A stretch of DNA of 42,122 nucleotides, from IMG/VR virus record IMGVR_UViG_3300018481_000036, positions 1 through 42,122 of that record, one strand, 5' to 3'. The notes under the pieces were generated by a model. The model was not told the DNA's origin and ran no database searches. It saw only the letters and a list, made by a program, of their open reading frames with translations. This stretch comes from a virus. A program made the position numbers and the translations under genes. Positions 5,625-36,405 of the stretch are shown in pieces (within the stretch, counting starts at the first letter, position 1; every line of letters begins with the position of its first letter).

Positions 5625-6275
5625 ATGCTAAAGTATCTACTAGCAACAACGGCAGCAATTAGTATGTTTGTGCTCGCGCCAGGAGCACACGCTGCGGTTA
5701 TTGCCGCTTTCTCGCAAGTATCGCCTACTAATACAGTAGTAGCTACCGATAACAGTGTTACTACCAACATTGTTATTGACGATGCCGTTACAAATGTATC
5801 TACATTTGGCGGTGGTGGTGCGCTAACTACTTATTTCAGCCTAAATTCTACTAGCACTGATGCTGCGGTACAGGTAGGTGGTGCGGTAATTCAGCACTAT
5901 GACGGAACGTTTTGTTTTACTTCCGCGATTAACTGTGGAGGCACTAATTACCTCACAGGTGTTTTTGATGATGCAGCGTTTGGTGCCCTTGGTGGACCGG
6001 GACTAGTTGTAAATGTAAACAATCCACCGGATGCACTAACACTCACATCCGATATTATTCCGGCGATTGATCTGCAACCACCTAGCAGTTTTTCATTGGC
6101 GTTTACTAATCTAACGCCAGTGCTTTCTATTGATGGCGCAACAATCAATGGATTTACTGCCGCTTTTGCTGGTGTTGTTAGTGCAAGCACTGGTACTGAT
6201 GTGCCCGAGCCAGGAGCATTGGCAATACTTGGCCTAGGACTAATGGGCCTTGCTGGCGTGAAGTATCGCAAGTAA
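5625..6275 (+). CDS. PEP-CTERM sorting-signal protein (phage-encoded)
   Basis: A 216-residue secreted protein. It begins with a signal peptide (positive MLK, hydrophobic core, cleavage after PGAHA). It ends in a textbook PEP-CTERM tail at residues 193-216: VPEPGAL, a hydrophobic segment ILGLGLMGLAGV, then basic KYRK. In bacteria this tail is processed by an exosortase in the inner membrane, and the proteins go to the surface or the exopolysaccharide matrix. The middle is Thr/Ser/Gly/Val-rich, low in charge, with one Cys pair, and is not recognised. It has its own ribosome binding site (AGGGGAAAA) and its stop overlaps the portal start. Base composition and CTA/CTAG use match its neighbours, so it is integrated into the phage operon. 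A host gene cluster is not visible. Confidence 0.88.
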   Translation: MLKYLLATTAAISMFVLAPGAHAAVIAAFSQVSPTNTVVATDNSVTTNIVIDDAVTNVSTFGGGGALTTYFSLNSTSTDAAVQVGGAVIQHYDGTFCFTSAINCGGTNYLTGVFDDAAFGALGGPGLVVNVNNPPDALTLTSDIIPAIDLQPPSSFSLAFTNLTPVLSIDGATINGFTAAFAGVVSASTGTDVPEPGALAILGLGLMGLAGVKYRK

Positions 6276-24673: not shown

Positions 24674-27600
24674 ATGGTTTCGCAAGTCAATCCGATTTAT
24701 CCGGTCTATGGTAATCCGACAACCATTACTGTAAGGCAAAACTTTGGCTTTACCAAGGCTGAGATTGAAGCATTACAAAACCTAGCTAACAATTCAGATC
24801 AAGGCCCATGGCTGCCGTTAGTTGGCGGTAATCTTTCCGGCCAAGTAAGAAGTACTATGGCTGGTGGCTCATCGTTTATTTATAACAGTGGTGCTGCGCC
24901 AACTATTGAATTCAATACTACTGGCGCGACTGCTGGTACAGGTGTAATACTAGGAAGACGTAATAGCATAACTCGTTGGGGTATCAATCTCGGAAATTCT
25001 GGTAGTGAATCCGCGAATCATTTCAGTATCGAAAACTTTAATGATGCTGGTGTATCGCAAGGCACACCGTTTATTATTAGCCGTTCTTCCGGTCAAGTAA
25101 TAATAAACAATAGCGCATCATTTGGTTCGCAGTTAGCGCCAAGTGTTACTGATCTATCCAAACACATTATGCTATACTCTAGCAACTTTGGCTTTAACGT
25201 TACCTCTGGTGCGTTGAATTATAATGTTCCTGGCGGATCAAATCATGTATTTTATATTGCCGGAGCAATCAAAGTTGCTGTTGGTAATACTGCAATAACA
25301 TCAGCCGTTGGACTTGATTTAGGATCGGCGGTTGCTGCTAGTCCAACTGATAATACTAGACACATTTCTTTGTATGGTGGAACGTATGGGCTTAATGTAA
25401 CTGGTAGTAGACTAAATATAAATGCTGGTTCTACTGCTAATATCGTTGATGTAATTGGCGGTGTAGATAAACTAACGGTAAACAATACTGCGGTAATTGC
25501 AACAGTTCCTATTACTTTGCCTGCTGATCCTACGGCCCCTTTACAATCATCAACGAAACAATACGTTGACAATCTTGTTACCAGATCAGGAGGACCGTGG
25601 CTACCGTTAGTTGGTGGTTCATTATCTGGTGGTCTAGGATTTGGCGGTGTGCTCGCGGCATCTAGTACTAATCTAACTCGTCACATTAGTTTGCATACTG
25701 ATGGTTATGGGTTTAATGTTACTACTGGACGATTGAATTTAGTTGGAATTGGAACTATTGCCGGCGTTGTTGGTGGCATAGATCGTTTCCTTTTGGATGC
25801 TGGTGAGGCTACTTTTGGCGCTAATACAGGCGCTTCATTCGTAACCGTAAATGGACCGTCTGGTGAGTATAGAGCAGTTATGTTTAAGACTGCTAGAGTT
25901 AATCGTTGGGGCTTGCTTATAAATCCTGCCAGCACAGAATCAACTGGAAATGCTGGTAGTAATTTGGAGTTGAATAGTTACGCGGATAATGGCGCTTTAG
26001 TTACTAATGTTTGGAGTGTCAATCGCGCTACCGGAATAACAACATATACCAATGGTATTAGTTTCGGAACCAATGTTGGCGCTACAGTTGTCGATACGTC
26101 TAAACATATTGTTTTGCATACCAATGGATATGGCTTTAGTGTTACTTCTGGACGATTGAATATTCTAGCTTCTACTGGCGCCGCTATTGTATCTAATATT
26201 GGCGGAACAGATAGACTTACTGTTTCTTTCACTGCTGTAACTTCTCAAATTCCTATTGTGCTTCCATCTGATCCTACTACTGCTCTACAAGCTGCAACAA
26301 AACAATACGTTGACGCTACCATTACGCGCGCGGGCGGGCCATTTCTGCCTTTGATTGGCGGAACAGTTACTGGCGCAACTACATTTAGTGCGGCCGGCAC
26401 TGCACTAACAGTAACAAATAATGCAACTGTTGGAGGAACATTAACCGCTGCGGTTGGAAGCGTAACAGGTGCATTGACTGCTGGTAGCGGAACAATTAAC
26501 GGCAATACAATAATAGCGGTGCATCCTACTGCTACCACCGCGCAACTTTATCTTAGGCCAGCATCATCTCCTGGCACTAACGGGATGGAGAGTAAACTAC
26601 GTTTTGGTGGAACGTTCGCTAGTGGAACTGATTACGGCCCCAGGTTCATTGCGTCTATCCGCGCCGGAATGGTTAGTGCTTGGGGAACTGAATACCTAGA
26701 CATTTGGACTGGCACTACTACAAACGATATTAGTTCGGATGTAAACCAAGCCCGCATTGCTCGTTTCCAGAACGCTGGTATAACATTTGATAAACAAGCA
26801 ACGTTCTCTGCTAATGTAATTGTTACGAACATCCGCGCGCCAGGAGCAACTAGTCTATCCTTGGGCAACGTAACGAGTGGTGAAGTATTACGATTGAATG
26901 ATTTGGCTGGCGCAAGAACATCGCGTGCCGATATTAGTTATTCTGCCGGATCTAATACTTGGTTTATTGGCGCTGCTGGAACTACAAGTAATCTATCTTT
27001 GATTACTCCTGGGCCTAGTGTTATACTTTTTAATAGTAACAGTGCAACTCAGTTTAGAGTTAATGGAGTTGCTTCTGCTGTTAATTACTTGCAAGTGTCA
27101 GGGTCAATAGTTGCTACCGCACCATTACTTGAAGCTCTTGGTTCCGATACTAACATCGGAATTAGATTGACGCCGAAAGGAACTGGCAATGTTGTCGTTA
27201 CCAATAATACTATATCGGTAGCGCGCGATCCTACATCTAATCTAGAACTAGCAACGAAACAATATGTAGACTTCAACATTGATACGTCTGGAGGACAATT
27301 CCTTCCGCTAACTGGTGGAACGTTACTTGGTATGCTGGAACTACCAGCAACCGTTCCGACCCTAGGCACCCATGCAACTAACAAGACGTATGTAGATACT
27401 AAGGCTGGGAACTATCTGCCATTGACTGGCGGAACAATTACTGGTGGTTTGACAGTAACAGGTAATCTAGTAACTAACGGATTGGTATTCTTCAATGGTG
27501 GTAATGTTCAGATAAAGACAACAACCAATACTAGAATTAGTCTGTTTGCTACTGCCGCGCCGACTGATGCCAAGACTGTTGATATGTTCTTGGATGGCGG

Positions 27601-28900
27601 CGGCAACTTCAATATGCAGTTTGTTAACGATGCATTCAATTCTGGCACTGGTTTCTTTGGAGTAACAAGAAGCGGACAGGCTACTACAGGATTGACTCTT
27701 ACTGCGCCAGTTATTGGTTTGAATGGCAGCGTTAATACTGGTTTCCTTTATCCATCAGGAGCTACAGTCACCACTGGCTTTGCTATCTATGCTGATGCTA
27801 CCTATCGTTACATTCGATTTACAACTGATGGTTGGCGGTTGTTGTTCAATGCTAGTACTGGCAATCTAACGTTTGATAATCCAGCCGGCACTAACATGCA
27901 CGTCTTTTATGGTAATGGTGATCTATGGGCGCGCGGCAGTATTACTGCTAACCTAGATATTGTTGGTGTTCGTAACATTTCTACTAACGGCGCAATATAT
28001 CCTTCCAATGCACTGTTGAGTGGTGGCTTTGCGCTCTATGCGGATGCATCTGATATCAATATTCGTTTCACTTTAGACAATTGGAGATTGTTCTTTCAAC
28101 GTAGCACTGGACTATTAGGCTATTGGAACTCTGCGGGACAGATACTTTGGCAATGCGATCCTACTGGTAACATGTGGGCTAAGGCTTCCATTTCATGTGC
28201 AGTTAATCTTCACGCAGATAACAATGTTACTGGTGTTGGTCGTGTGCAAGGCAACAACGGCATTATGTCTGGCAATGGTTGTTTCTATGTTGCCTATAAT
28301 GATGCGTATCGTTTACAGCGTCAGTCTGATGGTGCTTGGATATTTTATGAAAATGAGCAATGGAACGCTGCTATCCGCGCCAGTGGTAGTTTTGAAGCGA
28401 GATTGAATCTACATTGTCAAGGTGTAGGAGTCATCTACGGTAACATTGGCTCTAACGGATTTAATAACCGTTGGACTGGCGCTAATCTATATATACGGGT
28501 AGACAATGCAGTAGAGATTGGCGTGCAACCGCTCTCTGATATCCGAGTAAAGTCTGAAGTCGCACCATCTACTTTCGACTGTCTCGCAGCAGTAATGGCT
28601 ACGCCACTATTCCAGTTCAAGTATCGGCAAGCTCAACAACCGGCGCGACTATTTGATTCTGAGGATGTTGGTGAACTAATACCAGTTGGATTTGTTGCTC
28701 AGACACAACATGAAATCTGGCCGAGTAGTGTAGTAAAAGGCGATGATGAAGTTGGCAAAGGTGTTGTTGGTGCCACGCAACTTTGGAGTATGAACCATAA
28801 TACTTTGTGTGCTGCTTTGGTAGGTTCTATACAGCAACAACAAGCAATGATTGATAAGCTAGTTGCTCGCATTGAGCAGTTAGAAGCAACTATCCACTAG
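24674..28900 (+). CDS. Long tail fibre with C-terminal S74 chaperone
   Basis: A 1408-residue fibre. It has at least five blocks with TKQYVD or NKTYVD followed by a LPLxGGxxxG repeat (near residues 45, 295-315, 540-560, 860-885 and 905-925), the collar pattern of trimeric phage fibres. The last 121 residues are an intramolecular chaperone (S74): SDIRVKSE at 1288-1295 supplies the likely catalytic Ser1288 and Lys1293, and the autocleavage site precedes the Ser. A final coiled coil is IDKLVARIEQLEATIH. Long Thr/Ser/Gly-rich beta repeats lie between. Confidence 0.85.
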   Translation: MVSQVNPIYPVYGNPTTITVRQNFGFTKAEIEALQNLANNSDQGPWLPLVGGNLSGQVRSTMAGGSSFIYNSGAAPTIEFNTTGATAGTGVILGRRNSITRWGINLGNSGSESANHFSIENFNDAGVSQGTPFIISRSSGQVIINNSASFGSQLAPSVTDLSKHIMLYSSNFGFNVTSGALNYNVPGGSNHVFYIAGAIKVAVGNTAITSAVGLDLGSAVAASPTDNTRHISLYGGTYGLNVTGSRLNINAGSTANIVDVIGGVDKLTVNNTAVIATVPITLPADPTAPLQSSTKQYVDNLVTRSGGPWLPLVGGSLSGGLGFGGVLAASSTNLTRHISLHTDGYGFNVTTGRLNLVGIGTIAGVVGGIDRFLLDAGEATFGANTGASFVTVNGPSGEYRAVMFKTARVNRWGLLINPASTESTGNAGSNLELNSYADNGALVTNVWSVNRATGITTYTNGISFGTNVGATVVDTSKHIVLHTNGYGFSVTSGRLNILASTGAAIVSNIGGTDRLTVSFTAVTSQIPIVLPSDPTTALQAATKQYVDATITRAGGPFLPLIGGTVTGATTFSAAGTALTVTNNATVGGTLTAAVGSVTGALTAGSGTINGNTIIAVHPTATTAQLYLRPASSPGTNGMESKLRFGGTFASGTDYGPRFIASIRAGMVSAWGTEYLDIWTGTTTNDISSDVNQARIARFQNAGITFDKQATFSANVIVTNIRAPGATSLSLGNVTSGEVLRLNDLAGARTSRADISYSAGSNTWFIGAAGTTSNLSLITPGPSVILFNSNSATQFRVNGVASAVNYLQVSGSIVATAPLLEALGSDTNIGIRLTPKGTGNVVVTNNTISVARDPTSNLELATKQYVDFNIDTSGGQFLPLTGGTLLGMLELPATVPTLGTHATNKTYVDTKAGNYLPLTGGTITGGLTVTGNLVTNGLVFFNGGNVQIKTTTNTRISLFATAAPTDAKTVDMFLDGGGNFNMQFVNDAFNSGTGFFGVTRSGQATTGLTLTAPVIGLNGSVNTGFLYPSGATVTTGFAIYADATYRYIRFTTDGWRLLFNASTGNLTFDNPAGTNMHVFYGNGDLWARGSITANLDIVGVRNISTNGAIYPSNALLSGGFALYADASDINIRFTLDNWRLFFQRSTGLLGYWNSAGQILWQCDPTGNMWAKASISCAVNLHADNNVTGVGRVQGNNGIMSGNGCFYVAYNDAYRLQRQSDGAWIFYENEQWNAAIRASGSFEARLNLHCQGVGVIYGNIGSNGFNNRWTGANLYIRVDNAVEIGVQPLSDIRVKSEVAPSTFDCLAAVMATPLFQFKYRQAQQPARLFDSEDVGELIPVGFVAQTQHEIWPSSVVKGDDEVGKGVVGATQLWSMNHNTLCAALVGSIQQQQAMIDKLVARIEQLEATIH

Positions 28901-32888: not shown

Positions 32889-33088
32889 TGGGTCGCCGAG
32901 AAGATGCAGTGTTAGAGAATGATACTAGAATAGTCAGACTCAGTTTGACTAAAGAACAAATGAAACTACTGATTGACTATGCAGTGCGTAACGGTTTTGA
33001 ACGTAAAAACGCCACGCATAGTTGGGATGTGCAAGCCCAAAATGCCGCTGTTAAATGGGCTGTCATGTCTCGATTAGGCTTTGATTAA
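32888..33088 (+). CDS. Small protein, unknown
   Basis: A 66-residue protein, last on the + strand. Helical and charged (TRIVRLSLTKEQMKLLIDYAVRNG). GGAGG lies 10 nt upstream. It converges with the methyltransferase gene and overlaps its stop. It resembles small phage regulators but cannot be assigned. Confidence 0.65.
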   Translation: MGRREDAVLENDTRIVRLSLTKEQMKLLIDYAVRNGFERKNATHSWDVQAQNAAVKWAVMSRLGFD

Positions 33089-33663
33089 AGCCTACGAAAA
33101 ATAGTAATGACTCTGAAACGATGATTGGTAGATTTAACCATGCCAATCACTGCTTCTATGTCCCATTCATCTTTGCGATACATTGGTAATACTTGATCTA
33201 ACCAGACTACATGCGCGTTAGGATACAATCCATATAATGAATGAATTACTTTGTTACGTTTAATCATGGTAGTGCCGTAACGTTCTGCATCATCATTACT
33301 ATATGGTGGATCAGCTAACACTAAATCATATTGTTCTAGTGGAACATTCTTTAATGTCTGTGCGTCATCGACATAGGTAGGATTTAAGCCAGCTTGAATA
33401 TCAACTGTATCGCCAGGGAATTGATCTAATTCTACATGGCCAGAGAACAAATGGAGAATTCGTTTCTTATCAGGGAATAATGCTTTGATGCGGCGTAAAT
33501 ATGTTGGCGGATAACCACCATAATAATCCGATGCTACTCGGTAATTGTTACCCATAATCCAAGTGCCAACTACTCTACCATCATCGGCAATGAATAAACT
33601 AGCAGGGAAACCTGATACTTTTGCGTAATTGTTAATACGATCTTGCCATGTTAGTTCAGTCAT
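33085..33663 (-). CDS. Small DNA methyltransferase with DPPY motif
   Basis: A 192-residue protein with DPPYSN at 118-123, the catalytic motif IV of N6-adenine or N4-cytosine methyltransferases, and LHLFSG at 70-75 as a motif I-like region. It is short and has little space for a target recognition domain. Phages use such enzymes to protect DNA. Ribosome binding site GGAG precedes ATG 33663. Downstream of the repeat array on the same strand; a direct relation is not shown. Confidence 0.72.
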   Translation of the reverse strand: MTELTWQDRINNYAKVSGFPASLFIADDGRVVGTWIMGNNYRVASDYYGGYPPTYLRRIKALFPDKKRILHLFSGHVELDQFPGDTVDIQAGLNPTYVDDAQTLKNVPLEQYDLVLADPPYSNDDAERYGTTMIKRNKVIHSLYGLYPNAHVVWLDQVLPMYRKDEWDIEAVIGMVKSTNHRFRVITIFRRL

Positions 33664-33674
33664 ACTAACTCCTT

Positions 33675-33713
33675 AAAAACACTCCTGGCGTGATGGATGC
33701 CCCGCCAGGAGTG
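33675..33713. terminator. Hairpin terminator made from two octamers
   Basis: AACACTCCTGGCG at about 33678-33690 and CGCCAGGAGTGTT at 33703-33715 form a perfect 13-bp stem with a 12-nt loop. A-rich sequence precedes it on the methyltransferase side. On the - strand this makes AAAAAC downstream a T-type run. It isolates the array from the methyltransferase gene. Confidence 0.65.
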
Positions 33714-33738
33714 TTAGTTGTTATTCAAGTTTTTAGTC

Positions 33739-35487
33739 TAGTTCGCTTCGGTTACTGTCACTATCCCGCTGCATGACTCGTTCGTGCAGTTTGGCACTAT
33801 CGTAAGGAATGACTCGTTCTTCAGAGATGTTACTATCGGGGAATTTGACTCGTTCGCCAAACATGATACTATTACAGGCACTGACTCGTTACCAGACCTT
33901 GTTACTATTAACTGCGATGACTCGTTACCTTATTTTGTTACTATCAACTGAAGTGACTCGTTCTCCATAGTTGTTACTTATTTGACATGATAACTCGTTC
34001 TTCGGAGATGTTACTATCTAAGTCGATGACTCGTTCCCCGTGAATGGTACTATCGGGAATGTGACTCGTTCGTCGCGAATGTTACTATCAGTCAATATAA
34101 CTCGTTCCAATGACTTTGGTACTCTCTCAACCTATAACTCGCTCTCATACTTTGTTACTGTCAATGATGATTGGCTCACTACCAATTCATGATACTATCG
34201 GGGATGGTGGTTCGTTCCTCAAACATGTTACTATCGGAAGAGATGACTCGTTCACTCCATTTGTTACTATCACCGCCAATTAACTCATTCTTCTAACGTG
34301 GTACACTCGTGGAAAATGATTCGTTCTTAGAACCATGTTACTATCACGGGTAATAACTCGTTCGGCAGTGCTGGTACTCTTTCGAGATATGACTCGTTCC
34401 AACTGATTGGTACTAATTCAAGCGTCTTGACTCGTTCTAATGCTTTGTTACTATCGCGGACATTAACTCGTTCGAACGCTTTGTTACTATCGTGAGCTTT
34501 AACTCATTCAGAGGAGGTGTTACTATCTGGATTGATGATTCGTTCTCTCGCACTGTTACTGTTATCACGGATGACTCGTTCTCCTGAAATGGCACACTTC
34601 CTTTAAGTAACTCATTCCTTCATTATGGTACACTCACGGTTGCTGATTCGTTCATCGCCAATGTTACTATCTTGATACATTAACTCACTCTCACATACTG
34701 TTACTGTAATCGCCAATGGTTCGTTCGCTTAGGATGTTACTATCCAAACTTCTGACTCGTTCGCTCATTGTGGTACACTTCCTACAGATAACTCGTTCGT
34801 CCATTGTGGTACACTAGCGAGAAATGACTCGTTTACCTATTTTGGTACTATCCTTCAAAATAACTCGTTCGACCTATATGTTACTGTCACGCACTTTAAC
34901 TCGTTCGTGTCTATTGGTACACTCCACAGATATTAACTCGTTCGTCCATTATGGTACGCTCTGGCTAAGTAACTCATTCTCGGGGTATGGCACTATCGGA
35001 GCTTGTAATTCGTTCACTCTCATTGTTACTATCGAAGGCTTGTAACTCGTTCGCATCTCATGTTACTGTTGGTTCTGGTAACTCGTTCTCTTCTAATGTT
35101 ACTATCGTTCCTGTTAACTCGTTTCCTTTCTCTGGTACTATCGATTGTCACTAACTCACTCTCACAGTTTGTTACTATCTCTCTAGATGGTTCGTTCCTT
35201 TTTACTGGCACTCTTACGGCTTCTAACTAACTCGACAATCATGATACTATCAAACAGCGTGGTTCGTTCGTTCTTTATGGTACTCTCCTAGGGCACTAAC
35301 TCGCTACTTTTCCTTGTTACTATCAAGGAAGATGACTCGTTCACGAAAAATGTTACTATCACAAGTTTTGACTCGTTCTCCATACATGGTACTATCGATT
35401 GTAATAACTCGTTCTCATACATTGGTACACTTCTATGACCGTGACTCGTTCGTCTACAGTGGTACACTCGGTTAGCATGACTTTATC
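33739..35487. repeat. TIGR-like array: two alternating 9-mers with about 95 variable spacers, 36-bp period
   Basis: Two conserved 9-mers alternate. Type A is GACTCGTTC with variants AACTCGTTC, GATTCGTTC, GGTTCGTTC, AACTCATTC and AACTCACTC. Type B is GTTACTATC with variants GGTACTATC, GGCACTATC, GATACTATC, GGTACACTC and GTTACTGTC. I count 47 canonical A copies, starting at 33775 and ending at 35443, and 48 B copies from 33757 to 35461. Degenerate A copies lie at both ends (near 33740, and GACTTTATC at 35479). Start-to-start spacing is 18 nt in most steps (81 of 94), with 11 irregular B-to-A steps and 2 irregular A-to-B steps of 17, 19 or 20 nt. The 9-nt gaps all end in T but are otherwise different. 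This matches the 36-nt unit with two 9-nt spacers of TIGR arrays (Tandem Interspaced Guide RNA). Transcribed strand is not decided; the Tas gene upstream is on the - strand. Confidence 0.88.
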
Positions 35488-35518
35488 TTTGTAACAATAT
35501 TGTTGCTAAAGATAAAGC
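35480..35518. other. Long hairpin at the Tas-proximal end of the array
   Basis: CTTTATCTTT-GTAACAA (35481-35497) pairs with TTGTTGC-T-AAAGATAAAG (35500-35517), a 17-bp stem with one bulged T and one G-T wobble. It begins inside the last degenerate repeat. It may mark the array boundary, protect the precursor end or act as a leader hairpin. Confidence 0.65.
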
Positions 35519-35556
35519 AAATATTAACGTTAGTATAGCCAAGCAATGTTGTTTGA

Positions 35557-36405
35557 TCATGCCATAGGCCAATTCGGTGGCGCAAGGAAATGCGCGTGAC
35601 CAAGATGGTCAATGACATATGGCTTCGGCGGCGGCTCGTGGTAATGCAATTCATACATCACATGATGCAGATGTGACAAGAACAATTTTACTGCATAACG
35701 TTTTGCTCTTGCATGAATATGTGCTGGTGGTAGTTTGCCAGTCAAGTAATGCTTTTTTGCTTCAGTATCGGCCGCAAAGTTTTTTGTTGCCAGAATATGT
35801 TCCGCTTGCGAAGCAAATTGTAGTGCTTCGTTCTTCATAATCTCTTGTTGCTTACGCGCAAGATATACTTTGCCGTAAACATCGCTTTCCAAATACGATA
35901 CTTTAACAAAACTTTCCCCAATAATCCAGCACAGTCGTTTCAGCGAGCCATTCCATGGCCGCTTTTCTTTCTTATTCCATACAACTGTTGGATCTTGGCC
36001 AGCATAACGCCAAATATGCCCAACAGTTGGCGCTTTTGTTATGTCAATATGAGTAACTAACCCAGCCGAAATGATCGGACCAATACCAGTGATACTCCTG
36101 GCCCATTTGCTTGATGGATTAGTGTTACTGTATACATCTAACGCACGCGCTACTTGTTTCTCTAGTGTAGCGCGCTGATTAGTTAGCCAATCCAACACCA
36201 CATTGGGTTCTTTATTACTCTCTAACGTCCTAGTCTGGTGACTAGCGCGAATGCGATCCCGCTGCATTGCATAGTAACTGTCTACCAGAAATCTTACTTC
36301 CCGGTCAGATAGTGTGCGAGAAGCATTACGCAAATCTTTGGTTAGTCTGTCTATTGAACCAAGGATTTCGTTAATATCGAAGTCATTGTTAGTTGTTTCA
36401 CTCAT
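35557..36405 (-). CDS. Tas-like protein: Nop/IS110 C-terminal-type domain, no nuclease
   Basis: A 282-residue protein. Residues 1-95 are helical with a charged coiled coil. Residues 101-175 show SITGIGPIISAGLV (107-110 is GIGP), IWRYAGQDP at 131-139 and SLKRLCWIIGESF at 154-166. This is the pattern of the Tnp_20/Nop domain shared by IS110 transposases and box C/D Nop proteins. The IS110 RuvC-like DEDD N-terminus is missing, and no HNH or RuvC motif is seen, so it is best compared to TasA. It would bind the processed array RNA. The gene ends 70 nt before the array. The start overlaps the Arc-like gene by 8 nt. Confidence 0.78.
   Translation of the reverse strand: MSETTNNDFDINEILGSIDRLTKDLRNASRTLSDREVRFLVDSYYAMQRDRIRASHQTRTLESNKEPNVVLDWLTNQRATLEKQVARALDVYSNTNPSSKWARSITGIGPIISAGLVTHIDITKAPTVGHIWRYAGQDPTVVWNKKEKRPWNGSLKRLCWIIGESFVKVSYLESDVYGKVYLARKQQEIMKNEALQFASQAEHILATKNFAADTEAKKHYLTGKLPPAHIHARAKRYAVKLFLSHLHHVMYELHYHEPPPKPYVIDHLGHAHFLAPPNWPMA

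Follow-up and report, generated by a model that had tools for sequence, protein, structure and literature searches.

A TIGR-TasA locus with a long dual-repeat array on a myovirus-type phage contig, and matches of related guides in other phages

Structure of the locus

The stretch of DNA analysed here (the window) is the whole of the IMG/VR virus record IMGVR_UViG_3300018481_000036, a linear contig of 42,122 bp whose terminase, portal, contractile sheath and baseplate genes are those of a myovirus-type phage. Its minus strand carries tasA, the gene of a solo Nop-domain protein, and downstream of it an array in which two kinds of short repeat alternate. Together they almost certainly represent a complete phage-borne TIGR-TasA locus, a kind of system that is already known (Faure et al. 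2025, PMC12045711). TIGR-Tas arrays consist of two alternating repeats of 8-12 nt, edge and loop, and of spacers of 9 nt, up to 12, and they are processed to 36-nt guide RNAs (tigRNAs). One tigRNA is bound per Tas dimer; its spacers A and B base-pair to opposite strands of the target DNA, which is sharply bent (PMC12045711). The locus comprised the following features:

35557-36405, minus strand: tasA, encoding a 282-aa solo Nop-domain protein (phmmer, PHROG, AlphaFold2/Foldseek, Pfam)
35479-35518, minus strand: near-perfect palindrome between tasA and the array, spanning the first half-edge (fold z only -1.7)
33739-35487, minus strand: TIGR dual-repeat array of 49 edge and 48 loop repeats, forming 48 edge-A-loop-B-edge units of about 36 nt
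35478-35487, minus strand: first edge repeat, 5'-truncated (GATAAAGTCA), 3' half only (AGTCA)
33739-33748, minus strand: last edge repeat (AAGCGAACTA), degenerate rather than cleanly truncated
33675-33715, minus strand: rho-independent-type terminator 3' of the array, with a 13-bp GC-rich stem and UUUUU (fold -31.2 kcal/mol, z = -6.1)

The array has the same sense strand as tasA and lies 69 bp downstream of its stop codon. Both direct reading and segmentation with two 10-nt profiles showed the edge repeat, consensus GAACGAGTCA (n = 49), alternating with the loop repeat GATAGTAACA or its variant GAGTGTACCA (n = 48). The spacers are 8 nt long and differ between units; they would be 9 nt if the variable first base of the repeats were counted with them. 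A repeat length of 10 nt is the best reading; the first base is G in only about 70% of the repeats and is nearly spacer-like. A preliminary description of the window, made from the sequence alone, was right about the array itself, its count of 47 and 48 repeats, its 36-bp period and its distance of about 70 bp from the gene. The alternation of two 9-mers with gaps of about 9 nt that it reported stands as an alternation, but is better read as 10-nt repeats and 8-nt spacers, and the period, which it called exact, is usually 36 bp, with half-units of 17-20 nt occurring as well. From its position the palindrome may form a hairpin that parts the mRNA from the pre-tigRNA. An Rfam search of the window gave no match.

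Single edge repeats vary, but a change in one is compensated in its neighbour. Columns 7 and 8 of an edge repeat pair with columns 4 and 3 of the edge that follows, and in the window 94 of 96 such pairs were of the Watson-Crick type, as against 70 of 98 when the same columns were paired inside one repeat. None of 2000 shuffles was as good (p<0.0005), and the result was repeated in two relatives. Compensated neighbours were found, for instance GAACGAACCA followed by GAGTGAGTTA and GAACGAATCA followed by GAATGAGTTA. Among 30 columns these two pairs (E7-nE4 and E8-nE3) had the strongest mutual information, and a pair within the loop (L3-L8) was among the following ones. The unit is thus composed of the 3' half of an edge, A, loop, B and the 5' half of the next edge, held by the half-edge pairs and one loop-internal pair. 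In keeping with the covarying Box C/D-like motifs that edge and loop share in TIGR-Tas, their consensus sequences agreed in the last base in 181/190 parsed loci, duplicates included. The pairing across neighbouring edges indicates that this block, which corresponds to the 36-nt tigRNA, evolves as one, and it settles the identity of the edge repeat as well as the sense strand. End-to-end alternation and covariation together exclude a chance origin of the array. The paired unit boundaries also suggest processing to 36-nt RNAs at the window locus.

The TasA protein

In phmmer searches the tasA product matched TasR (PDB 9mty, E 4.2e-15) and TasH (21kl, E 7.6e-10), while IS621 was found only at E 0.7. 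Identity to TasR and TasH was 20-26%. An AlphaFold2 model built with 46 relatives reached a predicted local distance difference test score (pLDDT) of 86.6, and the top 11 PDB matches of this model in Foldseek were TasH and TasR structures, followed by IS621 and ISCro4 (E about 0.005-0.03). Match in sequence and in predicted fold identify the locus as TIGR-TasA. Pfam revealed no HNH or RuvC domain, and the model shows only helices ahead of the Nop fold; the lack of a nuclease domain places the protein in the TasA subtype. Both the Tas/Nop identity and the nuclease-free type that had been proposed for this gene were therefore borne out.

The protein also belongs to phrog_4285 (E 3e-55). TasA proteins are thus members of PHROG 4285, whose label, 'transposase, integration and excision', is probably wrong for this group. 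It might be thought that the locus is not TIGR at all, but an IS110-like element or a CRISPR-like array. This label and a weak match to the IS110 C-terminal domain (Pfam Transposase_20, E 0.009, below the cut-off) are what speaks for it. IS110 recombinases such as IS621 and ISCro4 share a distantly related Nop-type RNA-binding fold, but the window locus has a guide array instead of a bridge RNA, and it lacks the N-terminal DEDD/RuvC-like catalytic domain, so that membership of the IS110 family was rejected. CRISPR-Cas membership was rejected as well: the array has two alternating kinds of 10-nt repeats and not one of 25-36 nt, and none of 8 neighbouring genes matched a PADLOC cas model. With fold and sequence both matching TasH and TasR best, this is the least credible of the explanations considered here.

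The locus resembles known TIGR-TasA systems (e.g. FpTIGR of Flavonifractor plautii; PMC12045711) in its solo Nop protein, adjacent edge/loop array, two short spacers and 36-nt unit, and also in the truncated first edge, the terminator, the covariation of edge and loop motifs and the carriage by a tailed phage. It differs in having 48 units, as compared with the usual 5-15 reported. Its 8-nt spacers and 10-nt GA...CA repeats contrast with TasR, described with 9-nt spacers and UG...CCA (PMC12045711). TIGR-TasR (PDB 9mty) and TIGR-TasH (Salicola phage CGphi29; PDB 21kl, 9w04) share the Nop fold and the dual-spacer guide logic, but their N-terminal RuvC or HNH nuclease is missing from the window protein.

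Related arrays and turnover of units

IMG/VR scans gave 236-366 relatives per profile, of which the best 80 of each were kept, and about 150 related arrays were compared in all. Five loci were in bacterial genomes, including prophages of Halomonas sp. NO4 and Acidobacteriaceae KBS 96. In the first set 89 of 90 loci could be parsed, and every array was on the same strand as tas, to which the scan was confined. In 78 loci left after removal of near-duplicates the window array was the second longest single array, with 48 units against a median of 17 and a maximum of 65. The array had been called unusually long, which holds against the median; it is not unique, since one array exceeds it and several have 41-47 units. 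None of the neighbourhoods inspected showed adaptation genes, and no TasA was found in plasmids.

How arrays change was seen in two sister arrays (L010 and L011), whose phages have about 85% DNA identity and whose aligned TasA proteins show no difference. Of 43 units 30 were common, 29 of them in order, and the remainder were whole-unit gains, losses or replacements. Arrays stay collinear while gaining and losing whole units. Both arrays also contain a conserved unit (CCTATCTCGG / AAGATAGGA) with mutually complementary A and B spacers (CCTATCT / AGATAGG).

Layout of the targets

To ask how the two spacers are arranged in the DNA they come from, we trained a codon model on genes of the phages themselves; two 8-mers taken from one coding site agree in reading frame only when placed at their true distance. 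In 1353 guides frame linkage was found when A was joined directly to the reverse complement of B, rc(B) (gap 0; z = 4.5, 0/100 within-locus permutations). Linkage of A and rc(B) was negative at gaps 1 and 2, and there was none for A with unreversed B or for pairs drawn across units. A second set of 1169 independent, non-overlapping units again showed linkage at gap 0 (z = 2.6, 1/200). The shared frame points to targets that are largely coding DNA, laid out as A + rc(B); judged from the spacers, a target would be 16 bp long, without a gap, and lie mostly in genes. This layout agrees with the geometry deduced from TasR cut sites (PMC12045711), and it supplies the target geometry to be expected for TasA. 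The reading with 9-nt spacers, which would put the 8-mers 2 apart, found no support in the frame test (z at gap 2 between -1.8 and +0.9).

Two arrays of different phages (L012:1922 and L042:3515) contain the same 16-bp target (TGGTGCAC joined to CCGCGCTG) with A and B exchanged, as though it had been acquired in opposite orientations. Four arrays (L003, L005, L007 and L074) each have a version of one target, the versions differing at wobble positions in a sequence encoding xPTAYT. This case is striking singly, but a wobble pattern in diverged homologous units was weak overall and was dropped. The xPTAYT 16-mer had one match in IMG/VR, which was intergenic.

Matches in other phages

Natural targets, the origin of the spacers and the role of TasA were stated as unknown by the discoverers of TIGR-Tas, who found genuine targets difficult to identify (PMC12045711). 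No report of natural TIGR targets was found in the openly available full-text literature, a search that left aside subscription papers and preprints. Two arrays related to that of the window gave matches in foreign elements.

The first is the array of 7 units in a prophage of Acidobacteriaceae KBS 96. One of its guides (TAAAAGCA / TTCGATTC; as target TAAAAGCA directly followed by GAATCGAA) matched 16/16 at position 6,329,962 of the same chromosome, for which the chance is about 0.003 per guide. The site occupies codons 9-14, in frame, of an excisionase/Cox-like gene in a second prophage, which has integrase, repressor, replication, capsid and protease genes. Another guide (CTCCAGGT followed by TTGTAAGT) matched 14/16 in an O-like replication gene of the same target prophage, 910 bp off; one of the differences is synonymous and the other is at position 1 of the following codon. 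Five guides were searched genome-wide, and the other four, including this one, had no exact match in the genome. The replication-gene guide was not found exactly in 201 relatives, nor were relatives of the targeted replication protein found in IMG/VR. TasA of KBS 96 is intact, a suspected stop having turned out to be the natural end of the protein. An intact TasA beside a perfect target is to be expected if binding does not cut.

The second case concerns array L067, two guides of which matched 16/16 and 15/16 in phage G020. The sites, at a distance of 146 bp from each other, precede an early gene, and excisionase and integrase lie within 2.5 kb. The phages have little DNA in common beyond tasA, and the G020 site was absent from L067's own contig even at 3 mismatches. 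Exact matches near integrases numbered 2, compared with 0.03-0.05 in permuted arrays.

An array in Propionivibrio (L092:7782 and 7854) contains two guides one base apart (GAAATAAC / GAAGTAAC) with the same B. A guide of this array matched 14/16 at L185:1500-1515. This site is in frame within a primase-like gene belonging to an integrated element, whose integrase is about 1 kb away.

Possible role of the system

The best explanation overall, and one that we regard as probable, is that of a TIGR-TasA locus which silences without cleaving and whose guides are directed at other mobile elements. Transcripts of tasA and the array, encoded on one strand and closed by the terminator, would yield 36-nt tigRNAs, one of which would be bound by a Tas dimer. 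A and B would then pair with opposite strands, bending the DNA sharply, and the complex, having no nuclease, would block transcription or replication at the target. The guides would spare the genome that carries them and address mobile elements other than it; the best cases point to the integrase-proximal early region of rival temperate phages, with its excisionase and replication genes. Silencing of rival phages as the role of the TasA lineage is slightly favoured. A more specific proposal, immunity of phage against phage in which arrays collect 16-bp A + rc(B) addresses from the integrase/excisionase/replication region of rivals and silence them, falls just short of even chances. We infer silencing, a benefit to the carrier and the same behaviour in the phage of the window. 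Such action would be like that proposed for Type IV and V-M CRISPR (cited in PMC12045711), non-cleaving RNA-guided silencing of rival elements, although proteins and guide architecture are unrelated.

Several observations weigh against this explanation. The guides of the window, whose paired spacers had been put forward for comparison with viral genomes, had no target in their own or their relatives' DNA; silencing of competing phages, as suggested in the preliminary description, is favoured by evidence from the family and is not proven. Exact or 1-mismatch matches showed no excess in 1.9 Mb (whole contigs of 33 relatives and other flanks), and the guides searched from the Halomonas and Propionivibrio prophages had no exact match in their hosts. 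The frame signal was about 1/4 of that of pure phage coding DNA, suggesting targets that are often coding but mixed or of differing codon usage, and the G020 sites are intergenic, not coding. Regions near integrases were chosen partly post hoc. When the two regions with exact hits were omitted, matches with 2 mismatches near integrases numbered 238 as compared with 219 (7/60 shuffles), a weak effect, and this faint excess leaves integrase-proximal targeting unproven as a generalisation. Clusters of two near-matching guides, of which 2 were seen, were only mildly rarer in shuffles (6/200 had as many).

Guides might instead regulate genes of the host chromosome, as repressor or activator. Host genes would account for the coding-frame signal as readily as phage genes do, the KBS 96 target is in the host chromosome, though within a prophage, and a KBS 96 guide had a 1-mismatch match at the start of a metB-like gene. 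About one such match is expected by chance, however, the only exact match among the five KBS 96 guides fell in the second prophage, as did the 14/16 match, and the perfect match of another array is in a different virus contig. We consider regulation of host genes unlikely. Action on the own genome, be it self-regulation, packaging or help to an integrase through DNA bending, is very improbable. TasR bends its target by about 180 degrees, and TasA has been proposed as an integrase helper (Faure et al., PMC12045711), but none of 893 units matched its own phage contig with at most 1 mismatch at gap 0 (2 in shuffles), nor did any of the window's 46 testable units in four geometries with gaps 0-3. 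A degenerating relic, the long array being no longer selected, would account for some repeats being degenerate and most spacers having no known target. This is more improbable still in view of the 94/96 compensatory half-edge pairs, the intact conserved TasA and the strong terminator, and in sister phages units turn over faster than the protein changes.

If silencing of rivals is indeed the role, the KBS 96 and L067/G020 pairs would be the first natural TIGR-TasA targets known, and superinfection immunity would be guide-encoded, replacing a single repressor-operator pair. The question of TIGR targets can now be put to experiment with specific pairs of guide and target. What the arrays add is a contiguous, mostly coding source of A and rc(B), whole-unit turnover, self avoidance and two matches in rival phages.

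No excess of targets was seen in DNA up to 8 kb from related tas genes. An early impression that unrelated arrays have targets in common in shifted register was dropped, as these were at chance level.

Other features of the window

As to the lytic look ascribed to the phage in the preliminary description, no integrase was seen among the window genes searched, but the contig is linear and may be a fragment. Three other genes were noted:

33085-33663, minus strand: DNA methyltransferase-like protein, the next gene past the array
5625-6275, plus strand: 216-aa protein carrying a signal peptide and, at its C terminus, a PEP-CTERM sorting signal (VPEPGALAILGLGLMGLAGVKYRK; Pfam PF07589, E 3e-7)
24674-28900, plus strand: 1408-aa tail protein whose C terminus weakly matches the S74 chaperone (endosialidase-type), slightly short of the cut-off

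The PEP-CTERM gene sits between the genes for the large terminase and the portal, and its product would be a phage-encoded exosortase substrate, a hint that the host bears an exosortase.
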